Source: a virus
IMG/VR virus record: IMGVR_UViG_3300046167_000773
Coordinates: 1-45,871 of that record
Strand: one strand, 5' to 3'
Length of the DNA stretch: 45,871 nucleotides
The notes under the pieces: generated by a model
What the model saw: the letters and a program-made list of their open reading frames with translations, nothing else
What the model was told of the DNA's origin: nothing
Database searches by the model: none
Program-made: the position numbers and the translations under genes
In this document: positions 2,074-44,714 of the stretch, piece after piece
How positions within the stretch are numbered: the first letter of the stretch is position 1
Layout: each line of letters opens with the position of its first letter

Positions 2074-2732
2074 CAGTTTCTAACCCTCCTTCCTTCGCTG
2101 CCATTGCCCCTAGTAGCAATCTCATCTTCCCATCGCTCTTGATTAATGAATGTGCTGGGGAGAGGAATATACTTCTCTTCATCGAATCTGAACGGCCTTA
2201 GCTTTAATCTCTCGATTGCGAGCTTTTGCTTCTCAGGCGTTAACTTAATGAACTTCTCAAGCGCGGGCTTCTTCGACTTCTTCTTCGGGTACAGCGCCCA
2301 GAATTCATCAAATGCACGTATACTTTGTTTCTTGTTGTTCTTATGTTGAACATCCGGCGATTTCGCCACATCTGATCCGGCGATTCCGACACATGCATCC
2401 GGCGATTCCGCCACATGCAGAAACACTGAGTTTACGTGCCAATATATAGTCCTATCCCAAGGGTTTTTGCCAAGTTGCGATTTCGCCACATGGCCATCTT
2501 CCTCAAGTTTCCTCATAATCCTTCTTATCTGATCCACAGATAGGTAGTTGTGCCACTCTGCTAACGATTCATAGCTGTGTCGCACCCACCATTTGCCCTC
2601 GTGATAGAACTCATCAGGCCCAGCTTGCGACTCACGCTGAGACTGCAAGTAAGACAGATTCCAGATGATCAAAGCTGCGTTAACGCCGACTAAATCGGCT
2701 AACCTTGGATCAAAAGAGTGATGATGTTTCAT
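2073..2732 (-). CDS. Replication initiator / replisome organiser (lambda O-like role)
   Basis: This 219-residue protein has an N-terminal winged-helix-like part (residues 1-100, with SYESLAEWHNYLSVDQIRRIMRKLEEDGHV). A short linker of about residues 105-130 is encoded by the iteron repeats. The C-terminal domain begins FDEFWALYPKKKSKKPALEKF and runs to LPSTFINQERWEDEI, a hallmark of phage replisome organisers that recruit helicase. A strong RBS (GGAGG) precedes the ATG. The gene sits directly upstream of the helicase with a one-base overlap. Three 20-bp dyad repeats inside the gene are read in different frames, so they are conserved as DNA. This points to the origin lying within its own initiator gene, as in lambda. 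Confidence 0.85.
   Translation of the reverse strand: MKHHHSFDPRLADLVGVNAALIIWNLSYLQSQRESQAGPDEFYHEGKWWVRHSYESLAEWHNYLSVDQIRRIMRKLEEDGHVAKSQLGKNPWDRTIYWHVNSVFLHVAESPDACVGIAGSDVAKSPDVQHKNNKKQSIRAFDEFWALYPKKKSKKPALEKFIKLTPEKQKLAIERLKLRPFRFDEEKYIPLPSTFINQERWEDEIATRGNGSEGRRVRN
2352..2491. repeat. Iteron array, candidate replication origin inside the initiator gene
   Basis: Three near-identical 20-bp repeats occur at 2352-2371, 2375-2394 and 2397-2416, each centred on the dyad GGCGA-TT-TCGCC (the latter two carry small changes). A partial fourth copy lies at 2477-2491. Start-to-start spacing is 23 and 22 bp, about two helical turns. Because the spacings differ by 1 and 2 modulo 3, the repeats are translated in three different frames, so protein-level selection does not explain their identity. 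A T-rich/AT-rich stretch (about 2310-2350) follows on the 3' side of the gene and could be the unwinding element. The arrangement matches lambda ori in gene O. Confidence 0.8.
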
Positions 2733-6941: not shown

Positions 6942-7234
6942 TGCAAATCCTACAGACAGCAACCTCTCACTGTTTGGTAATGGATTGCGAAGGAAACACC
7001 CTTGGATCAATCGCTAGGCAGAAAGGCTCGACGTTGTGGGCATTCTATAAGGCGGGGTACAAGCGTCCGTTTAAGCGCGATATACCCACCCTAGCGGCTG
7101 CCAAGGATTTAGCAGAGCGAAAGCCGTGGGTTTGGCATTCAACGGCAAAGAGAGACAACACGTTAACGTTAAGCGTCTTGTTTTGGGTATTGGCCATAGT
7201 AGCAGGATCGCTATCAGTGGTATCATTTCAGTGA
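6941..7234 (+). CDS. Small protein with C-terminal membrane segment
   Basis: This 97-residue protein begins with a compact basic domain of about 70 residues (QKGSTLWAFYKAGYKRPFKRDI...). It ends with one hydrophobic helix, LSVLFWVLAIVAGSLSVVSF (about 77-96), giving a tail-anchored topology. The ATG overlaps the previous stop (TAATG). No family is recognised. It is one of three single-span small proteins in a genome with no obvious holin. Confidence 0.55.
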   Translation: MQILQTATSHCLVMDCEGNTLGSIARQKGSTLWAFYKAGYKRPFKRDIPTLAAAKDLAERKPWVWHSTAKRDNTLTLSVLFWVLAIVAGSLSVVSFQ

Positions 7235-7300: not shown

Positions 7301-7576
7301 ATGTGGATTTCTCGCAACAAATACCTCAACGATACTGGGCTATCAAAAGGCGTCTTTAGAGGCTGGATTGACAGGCACCTCGTTTCTGGCATTCACTATA
7401 AAGTCATAGGACATACTACTTTAGTGAACCCAGAGGCCATTGACGGATGGATTACCCAGCTGGAATCAGGCCACACGGAGCGGGCCTCAGAATCAGAGTA
7501 TTCAAGGCTGGAAAAGTCGCGCACCAAGAAACACTCAAAGGTGATTGTGGCTCTCGACACCTCAAGGCAGCTATAA
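7301..7576 (+). CDS. xis: Excisionase-like small DNA-binding protein
   Basis: This 91-residue protein starts MWISRNKYLNDTGLSKGVFRGWIDRHLVSGIHYKVIGHTTLVNPEAIDGWI, the winged-helix layout of phage Xis/AlpA-type proteins that recognise DNA with a short HTH and bend att DNA. The last 45 residues are basic and overlap the integrase start by 130 bases, so int and xis are translationally entangled. Such overlap would keep their ratio fixed. No clear RBS is present, and a hairpin precedes the start. Confidence 0.65.
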   Translation: MWISRNKYLNDTGLSKGVFRGWIDRHLVSGIHYKVIGHTTLVNPEAIDGWITQLESGHTERASESEYSRLEKSRTKKHSKVIVALDTSRQL

Positions 7577-8481
7577 AGCGCAGAGCAGAGCTTCTAGCAC
7601 TTTACAAGCGCGGCCTATCCATAACCCAAGAATCCATCGTTAGCTTTAAGGACGCTGCACAAGAGTACATGAATCTCTTGGATGCGAAGCACTCTACCGT
7701 CACTAGCTACCGAAACATCATTAGGCGTTATTGGCTCCCCAAATTTGAGCAGCTTCCAGTAACGACAATCAGCACCAAAGACATAAAACTTGCGCTAGCC
7801 TCGTTTGACGTTTCACCCAAGACTAAGAAAAATCTATTGATCCCGCTGCGAGGCGTACTAGATCACGCTGAAGTAAACCCCAATCCCGTCAACGCTGTGA
7901 AAATCAAGCAGCGTCAAAAGGAGCAGGTTCAGCGCTACACCCCAGCAGAGCGCGACAAGCTTCTCAGCCAGCTAGATGGCGATATTAAGTCTTACTTCGT
8001 TCTGATGTTTGGATGCGGACTCCGCCCAGGAGAAGTGCTTGGCCTCAAATGGTGTGATTACAGGGATGGACAACTTAACATCGAGAAGCAGATAACCCGC
8101 CGAAGGCTGGAGCCATCAACTAAGACAGGCTACCGACGGAGAGTGTTTGTGCCTCAGTGGGTACGGCCTCACCTCAATCTTGAAACCCGATTCACCTCAG
8201 AATGGATATTCGCTAACGCGAAAGGGAATCACCATCAGGATACGGATAGGTTCAATGAGGCATGGGCTGAGGCGCACAAGAGAGCCAAGGTGCGTTATCG
8301 GATACCTTATGTCTGTCGCCACACCAGAGCAGCCGAACTACTCTCCAGCGGCGTCCTACCACCCGCAGCAGCAGCCCAGCTAGGCCACTCCGTTGAAATG
8401 TTCTTTAGGACGTATTCAGAGTGGATAGAGGATTATTCTCGGGACGATCAGGTATTTGATACACCCTACTTAAAAGCGTAA
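7447..8481 (+). CDS. int: Tyrosine-recombinase integrase with N-terminal arm-binding domain
   Basis: This is a 344-residue protein. Residues 3-53 (YPAGIRPHGAGLRI...) form a small beta-rich arm-type DNA-binding domain like that of Min27-type phage integrases. Residues 65-150 are the SAM-like core-binding domain. The catalytic domain follows, with Arg193 in GCGLRPGEVLGLKW, Lys226, His292 and Arg294 in CRHTRA, His314 in LGHS and nucleophile Tyr323 in RTYSEW, so the active site is complete. It lies about 600 bases from the tRNA-Asp-type attP core. The arm domain is duplicated in the HNH gene just downstream (57% identity over 51 residues by eye). Confidence 0.93.
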   Translation: MDYPAGIRPHGAGLRIRVFKAGKVAHQETLKGDCGSRHLKAAIKRRAELLALYKRGLSITQESIVSFKDAAQEYMNLLDAKHSTVTSYRNIIRRYWLPKFEQLPVTTISTKDIKLALASFDVSPKTKKNLLIPLRGVLDHAEVNPNPVNAVKIKQRQKEQVQRYTPAERDKLLSQLDGDIKSYFVLMFGCGLRPGEVLGLKWCDYRDGQLNIEKQITRRRLEPSTKTGYRRRVFVPQWVRPHLNLETRFTSEWIFANAKGNHHQDTDRFNEAWAEAHKRAKVRYRIPYVCRHTRAAELLSSGVLPPAAAAQLGHSVEMFFRTYSEWIEDYSRDDQVFDTPYLKA

Positions 8482-43862: not shown

Positions 43863-43880
43863 CCAGGAGAGGCCCACTTG

Positions 43881-44117
43881 ATGGATTCTTACGATATGCG
43901 ACGGGATCACGCGCCCATATTGATCCCCTTTGAAGATAGCCAGCAAGGCGGCAAGCCAGCCAAAGCCAAGCGAGGCGCTTCCAGATCGGGAAAGCCTCAG
44001 AGGTTATCCCAAGATCAGCAAATCGCGGACGCTTGGAATTCAATCTATGGCGGGTTAAACCTCGCCGGTATGGTTGCGCGGATCGTCACCGATTCGGGGC
44101 AAGACATTGTGAGATGA
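43881..44117 (+). CDS. Accessory operon protein 7, basic small protein
   Basis: This 78-residue protein is counted from ATG 43881; TTG at 43878 is possible (AGGAGAGG upstream suits either). The N-terminus is acidic, then a Lys/Arg/Gly-rich middle (GGKPAKAKRGASRSGKPQRLSQDQQ), then a helix (IADAWNSIYGGLNLAGMVARIV). The basic linker suggests nucleic-acid contact. It is the last gene of the operon, followed by tandem terminators. Confidence 0.55.
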   Translation: MDSYDMRRDHAPILIPFEDSQQGGKPAKAKRGASRSGKPQRLSQDQQIADAWNSIYGGLNLAGMVARIVTDSGQDIVR

Positions 44118-44128
44118 TCCAATGGCCT

Positions 44129-44148
44129 CCGATATTGATCGGTTTTTT
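44129..44148 (+). terminator. Intrinsic terminator 1 of the accessory operon
   Basis: CCGAT-ATTG-ATCGG followed by six T, 12 bases after the last stop codon. It is followed by CTCAG...CTGAG, a second weak stem, and the whole unit is repeated downstream. Confidence 0.7.
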
Positions 44149-44175
44149 CTCAGATTTGCGCCATTTCTGAGGCTG

Positions 44176-44199
44176 AACCGATCATTTCATCGGTTTTTT
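44176..44199 (+). terminator. Intrinsic terminator 2 (tandem copy)
   Basis: AACCGAT-CATTTC-ATCGGTT followed by T residues: a stronger 7-bp stem that duplicates terminator 1. The stretch after it (CTCAG...CTGAG) is also repeated, so about 50 bases were duplicated. Confidence 0.75.
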
Positions 44200-44284
44200 C
44201 TCAGTTCTGGGCATTTTCTGAGATATTTCCGATAATTTGGCAAATGTACGGACATTTTCGACGATTTTGACGATTTTTTTGGGG

Positions 44285-44384
44285 GACTGGTGAAAATCGC
44301 GGGGGGGACTCGTGAAAATCTCCATCAGACTCGTGAAAATCTCCGATCAGACTCGTGAAAATCTCCGACAGGCTCGTGAAAATC
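44285..44384. repeat. Five phased direct repeats (GACTCGTGAAAATC)
   Basis: Copies start at 44285, 44307, 44328, 44350 and 44371. The middle three are identical over 14 bases; the first and last differ by one. Spacings of 22, 21, 22, 21 bp put every copy on the same face of the helix. The array ends exactly at the stop of the HNH gene, with two G-runs (44281-44285, 44301-44307) at its left edge. Candidates are protein-binding iterons for packaging, a second origin or partition-like site, or a phage control element. Confidence 0.75.
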
Positions 44385-44714
44385 TCAACCCCAGCCTTCA
44401 GGAAATCCGTCCAGGTTTGTTGGCTTAACCTTACTGTTCTCAACCCAACTGGCCTTCTTACTGTTGCAGCTATGGCAAACCATTTGCAGGTTACTCAACG
44501 TTAAAGCTAGATCAGGGCGCTTCACACGAGGCTCGATATGATCCACAACTGCTTGCGCCCGCTGGCCTCGCCTCACCGTAAAGTCTAGCCTTCCACCGCA
44601 GAACGCGCATGGCCTATTCGCAGCCTTCCATTGCGCCCTCACTTTGTTCCTGAGATTTCGCCACGGCTGAGATTGATAAAACCCGTCAAGTCTATCGGCC
44701 ATAGCCATACTCAT
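44385..44714 (-). CDS. HNH endonuclease
   Basis: This 109-residue protein has CAFCGGRLDF (first zinc pair), AQAVVDHIEPRVKRPDLALTLSNLQMVCHSCNSKK, the complete DH...N...H/CxxC signature of HNH nucleases, and a short YQSQPWRNLRNKVRAQW N-terminus seen in phage HNH proteins that assist terminase at cos. The start is ambiguous (ATG 44714, 44708 or 44702). It is last in the leftward early operon and ends at the direct-repeat array, so cutting near that array is an attractive idea. Confidence 0.85.
   Translation of the reverse strand: MSMAMADRLDGFYQSQPWRNLRNKVRAQWKAANRPCAFCGGRLDFTVRRGQRAQAVVDHIEPRVKRPDLALTLSNLQMVCHSCNSKKASWVENSKVKPTNLDGFPEGWG

Follow-up and report, generated by a model that had tools for sequence, protein, structure and literature searches.

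Repeats within an initiator gene as a predicted lambda-like replication origin of a phage, and their correspondence with residues of the recognition helix

The window analysed here is the whole of the IMG/VR virus record IMGVR_UViG_3300046167_000773 (45,871 bases). Gene P0001 (2073..2732, minus strand) encodes an O-like replication initiator of 219 aa, consisting of a winged-helix DNA-binding domain, a linker and a C-terminal domain with the motif FWxxYPxK...NQERWEDE (approximately residues 136-204; 2121..2327, minus strand), and its product was matched by the PHROG replication initiation families phrog_270 (2e-19) and phrog_11233 (7.9e-19). The first-pass annotation was corrected with respect to strand, the O-like gene being on the minus strand. 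Directly downstream of P0001 lies the gene for P0002 (979..2073, minus strand), a DnaB/RecA-like ATPase (DnaB_C, 2.2e-8; AAA_25, 1e-10; phrog_239, 6.4e-35) and, from these matches, the probable replicative helicase. Upstream lies the gene for P0003 (3225..4016, minus strand), a primase-like protein (zinc finger/primase; phrog_6088, 3.6e-12; Zn_ribbon_DnaG, 8.9e-4, under the Pfam cut-off). An integrase gene was found at 7447-8481 (phrog_1, 1.4e-40), from which the phage is probably temperate. A nucleotide search of phages with the window gave no match, and the GC skew of the window was uninformative because most genes are on one strand.

Four copies of a repeat (iteron) of 22 bases each were located within P0001, the core on the coding strand being ATGTGGCGAAATCGCC. 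In gene direction, the copies occupy 2472..2493 (core 2476-2491), 2397..2418 (core 2401-2416), 2375..2396 (core 2379-2394) and 2352..2373 (core 2356-2371), all on the minus strand, and from 2352 upwards their start-to-start spacing is 23, 22 and 75 bases. With up to three mismatches allowed, no further occurrence of the core was found in the 45,871 bases of the record. The repeats had been described as three dyad-containing copies and a partial fourth, placed in the linker at a spacing of 22-23 bp. Their location inside the O-like gene was real, and the spacing and the linker position were right for three copies (23 and 22) but not for the fourth, which is 75 bases away in the wing codons (residues 81-86, the first wing strand being predicted at 82-85). 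Nor is this copy partial, since its core differs from the consensus by just one base; at the same place in the related L093 protein it was absent. A perfect 5-bp dyad (GGCGA-TT-TCGCC) was present only at 2356-2371, the dyads of the other copies being imperfect, and stronger iteron dyads were found in the relatives L099, L101, L102 and L108 than in the window.

The repetition was compared with synonymous recodings, in which the protein sequence was fixed and the codons were redrawn from phage usage. Among 400 recodings of the O-like gene, four copies were obtained in 0 and three copies in 9, and 400 codon shuffles never gave more than two copies; chance under an unchanged protein sequence does not account for the repeats. 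Three of the window copies are in one frame and encode VA(K/E)S, and only 2375-2396 is out of frame, so that the repetition in the window could be partly at the peptide level.

The iterons are followed, in the 3' direction on the coding strand, by an A-rich stretch (2301..2351, minus strand), a candidate unwinding element. The AT-rich stretch reported after the repeats is accordingly present, with 69% A+T, but modest, as 1.5% of the 51-base segments of the record are equally A+T-rich, stronger A+T minima occur elsewhere in the record, and the stretch is not its weakest duplex. In a set of 42 genes collected by their DNA-binding domain, A+T was above the gene mean after all 19 arrays with at least three copies, and coding-strand A was above the mean after 18 of these 19. 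The hexamer CAGATA was found in the linkers of the same 42 genes 44 times in the A-rich part and 5 times elsewhere, with 43 of the 44 in one frame (Thr/Pro-Asp); it may represent a motif of the protein or, alternatively, belong to the unwinding region.

As positive controls, lambda O and P22 gene 18 were submitted to the repeat detector, which recovered the four annotated iterons of lambda O (spacing 20, 24 and 23) and, within the P22 origin as annotated, found three repeats; in both phages, the 60 bases that follow the array contained 67% A+T. The search for iterons in relatives was moved from relatives of the C-terminal domain (best 80 of 181) to those of the DNA-binding domain, because many of the former, being short proteins, lack a DNA-binding domain. 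Residues 1-128 of P0001 as the sole query recovered no relative, and alignments were required. Three scans based on the DNA-binding domain (216/217 loci together with the window; two of the scans being the best 80 of 191 and the best 80 of 316) were reduced to 112 non-redundant domains.

Among the matches listed, a significant linker array was present in 59 of the 112 non-redundant relatives, with at least three copies in 48, and was not detected in 53, including L116/L117 (= L011/L010), in which both the DNA-binding domain family and the C-terminal type are those of the window. Significant arrays were found in 22 genes of the smaller 42-gene set, and an array at p 0.01 in 8 of 18 named isolates; a search of 249 genomes from a single phylum yielded just 3 matches. 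The gaps between copies (118 among the matches listed) were 22 bp in 84 cases, 21 bp in 11 and 23 bp in 6. When the linkers of the 42-gene set were shuffled, 0.7% of the 850 resulting gaps were 22 bp long, the observed spacing being set at the level of DNA. The first-pass annotation had argued from frame changes between copies that the repeats are kept as DNA, which is weak for the window gene alone, with its single copy out of frame, but strong in the relatives, as 29 of the 48 arrays used all three frames, 14 used two and 5 used one (among the matches listed), that is, 43 of 48 span two or three. The same figures bear on a reading in which a peptide repeat (VAxSP) was duplicated in an unconstrained linker and the DNA has no role. 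The frame and codons common to three of the four window copies are what such a duplication would leave, but the remaining copy (2375-2396) uses a different frame, the repeats of the relatives each encode unrelated peptides, and 22-bp spacing is dominant there, which makes this reading very improbable.

The two spaced cores were sought in 2.9 million viral contigs, and 5 contigs matched. The cores lie in the O-like gene in L091 (truncated by the contig end), L092, L093 and L094, the last two encoding an identical protein, and between genes in L090. Two of these loci also carry other names (L093 = L099; L092 = L108). The DNA-binding domain of the window was 33-59% identical to those of L108, L099, L101 and L102, whereas its C-terminal part had no match in L099, L101 or L102, and one of just 8 residues in L108 (E 2.8). 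L102 resembles the window in having an AAA_25/DnaB-like ATPase as its downstream partner, L108 has an IstB/DnaA-type ATPase there, and neither type was found downstream in L101 and L099. Conversely, relatives of the C-terminal domain (best 80 of 181) carried other N-terminal domains, and several had other repeats in the same place. The C-terminal domain is thus exchanged independently of the DNA-binding domain, and the latter is inherited together with its iterons. The overall Mantel correlation of DNA-binding domain and iteron was, however, modest, with 21 genes (r 0.36, p 0.0008; r 0.22, p 0.07 after removal of three close relatives) and with 58 genes (r 0.21, p 0.005).

The structure of P0001 was predicted with AlphaFold2 (mean pLDDT 82.9). 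In the model, the recognition helix is formed by residues 66-78 (codons 2499..2537, minus strand), with residues 67 and 70 at its start (D67, 2532-2534; R70, 2523-2525). The top structural matches were 4pql (Z 10.7, rmsd 4.9 over 108 aligned residues for chain A, Foldseek E 4.4e-3), 4pt7 (10.4) and 5kbj (10.0), with unrelated winged helices at about 9 (9.1 for those such as CRP). The three entries are listed as 'initiator', 'Rep-DNA complex' and 'DNA binding protein'; we take them to be N-terminal domains of plasmid initiators, 4pql and 4pt7 presumably being the pSK41 protein. No match to RepA_N (PF06970) was found in P0001 at E up to 1, and a PDB sequence search with P0001, A5 and A4 gave no credible match.

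Three relatives with DNA-binding domains 75-86% identical to one another, L099, L101 and L102, differ at the start of the helix (SVDQ, SVQQ and SVPQ, respectively) and in their iterons, which are GGCGAAATCGCC in L099, GTCGGAATCGAC in L101, and both GTACGAAATCGTAC and GTTCGGAATCGAAC within L102. The arms are GGCG/CGCC in L099, GTCG/CGAC in L101, and GTACG/CGTAC or GTTCG/CGAAC in L102, both arms changing together. Symmetric changes of this kind would also preserve RNA stems, as expected if the dyads were hairpins in an early transcript, acting in translation or antitermination control, and not DNA sites. This is hardly credible, however, given that the predicted RNA folding of the segment was not unusual (z -1.55), and that neither a regular 22-bp spacing nor covariation with a DNA-recognition helix is expected for hairpins.

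Covariation between single residues and the iterons was examined by a scan of 84 alignment columns in 58 proteins with overall identity regressed out, in which residues 67 and 70 stood above all others (z 9.7 and 5.3, respectively; next 2.0); the scan is not independent of the idea that lysine matters, which had been noticed in the 42-gene data, and the seeds of A4 were lysine types. The significant arrays of L248 and L284, whose repeat unit is the A-rich CAGATA element, were left out, and L108 was taken in despite an array below the cut-off. In the 58-protein set, CCC-N2-4-GGG occurred in 30 of 34 iteron sets of proteins with lysine 67 and in 1 of 24 with other residues; regardless of the presence of an array, the corresponding counts among the matches listed were 41 of 55 and 3 of 57 (112 domains). 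Rules for lysine and for aspartate were fixed before the last scan (best 80 of 351), so that the held-out set, 33 of 79 candidate genes new at 85% identity among the matches listed, is an independent test. The lysine rule held in 10 of 11 lysine proteins against 1 of 22 others (p 1.3e-6, among the matches listed). The aspartate rule (GGC...GCC) failed on the held-out data, with 1 of 3 against 3 of 30 (among the matches listed). A tree was also built from the sequences minus the helix; of its 38 independent pairs in which lysine 67 is present on one side only, 28 were concordant, 0 opposite and 10 tied. The 18 named isolates contained no lysine-67 protein and hence provided no test of the lysine rule; the CCC...GGG motif occurred in 1 of them.

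These data suggest that one or two residues of the initiator track which repeat sequence is used. A recognition code, in which residue 67 (with 70) sets the iteron arms, lysine going with GCCC...GGGC and other residues with other arms, while the C-terminal domain and the helicase-side genes are freely exchanged, is somewhat favoured by the comparison. If it is true, the origin sequence and the mutual incompatibility of uncultured phages would be readable from the protein alone.

A second array was present in the window, five repeats of GACTCGTGAAAATCTC spaced 21-22 bp between convergent reading frames (44283-44386). Two 51-base repeats at 44135-44236 adjoin it. With its five copies, regular spacing and position between convergent frames, and its presence in the near relative L095, this array might be the true origin, the copies in the O-like gene serving only autoregulation or incompatibility. 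We consider that unlikely, as L095 was the only other contig with the array, whereas arrays in linkers are recurrent in the family of initiators, and no initiator-like gene lies beside it (43878-44117 had no PHROG match and 44385-44714 is HNH-like).

The repeats in P0001 are very probably the sites at which the gene's own product binds and, joined by the adjacent A-rich stretch, very probably make up the replication origin of the phage, as predicted from sequence. As proposed at the outset, a lambda-like origin to which its own initiator binds remains the best explanation on the basis of the lambda and P22 controls, the occurrence of related repeats with related DNA-binding domains, and the tracking of the iteron by the recognition helix. 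We infer binding, dimerisation, unwinding, helicase loading and origin function as follows. The winged-helix N-terminal domain would bind each dyad, probably as a dimer, and the start of the recognition helix (D67, R70) would read the iteron arms. A spacing of approximately 22 bp, or two helical turns, would place the bound initiators on one face of the DNA, and the resulting nucleoprotein complex may open the neighbouring A-rich stretch, 3' of the array. Helicase recruitment is presumed to be the task of the C-terminal domain, which would then bring in the phage helicase encoded just downstream.

Origins within initiator genes are already known from lambda, P22 and pSK41, and the window phage adds a probable further one. 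Iterons lie inside the initiator gene in lambda ori (gene O) and in Shiga-toxin phage O/ori, and lambda, Stx phage O and P22 gene 18 resemble the window in that iterons spaced by 20-24 bp separate the N-terminal from the C-terminal part and have an A-rich stretch 3' of them (PMC7466680, PMC6022878). The iterons of these phages are dyads, whereas in the window the dyad is perfect in one copy and imperfect in three. The window gene likewise has several iterons about two helical turns apart, the lambda-type architecture, and in P22, too, gene 18 has a DnaB-like helicase gene beside it. The window differs from these phages in its iteron and in having one copy in wing codons, and from lambda in its partner, a DnaB/RecA-like ATPase and not lambda P. 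'Lambda-like' is apt for the architecture but not for homology: P0001 had no match to PF04492 (Phage_rep_O) at E up to 1 (lambda O, 5.7e-36; P22 gp18, 6.9e-38), hhalign of A3 against lambda O gave a probability of 0.1%, and, judged by sequence, P0001 is not a homologue of lambda O.

Among RepA_N initiators, pSK41 has its origin centrally within rep and a winged-helix N-terminal domain, and in the hybrid Rep of pPR9 the N-terminal domain and origin were swapped together for a phage-like HTH_36 one (PMC5703833); a winged-helix N-terminal domain and a mid-gene origin, both predicted in the window, and joint exchange of the two are shared with the window, which differs in being a phage with another C-terminal domain and no RepA_N Pfam match. 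RepA of the PLE satellite has a DNA-binding domain that covaries with the origin iterons, as in the window family, and a conserved C-terminal part, cognate pairs being required; unlike in the window, its origin is intergenic and the protein has a RepA_N domain (PMC8263062). For Obolenskvirus (phages Brutus and Scipio), an origin had already been suggested at direct repeats that lie, as in the window, midway along the replication gene; the iteron is different from that of the window, and no residue/iteron analysis was found in the accessible part of that paper (PMC10888812). In the relative Abp95 a 23-bp array was found here.

The correspondence between residue and iteron was not found in print in a literature search that reached few subscription journals. 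The relatives constitute a natural experiment: nearly identical DNA-binding domains face iterons altered symmetrically, and one DNA-binding module is joined to C-termini unrelated to each other. Should the correspondence at 67 and 70 be confirmed biochemically, the replication origins of many uncultured phages, the specificity of these origins and the compatibility of the phages would be predictable from sequence.

Two further loci were observed. In L090, a contig of 19,965 bases in which no relative of P0001 was found, two GGCGATTTCGCC cores lie between genes at 6985-7020 and adjoin a very A+T-rich stretch; they may be an element resembling an origin but separated from its initiator, or else a decoy. 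The annotation of phage phiLdb (L325, 1186-2673) divides the initiator region among three successive frames, of which the first covers the DNA-binding domain only; this may represent a split gene or a frameshift.
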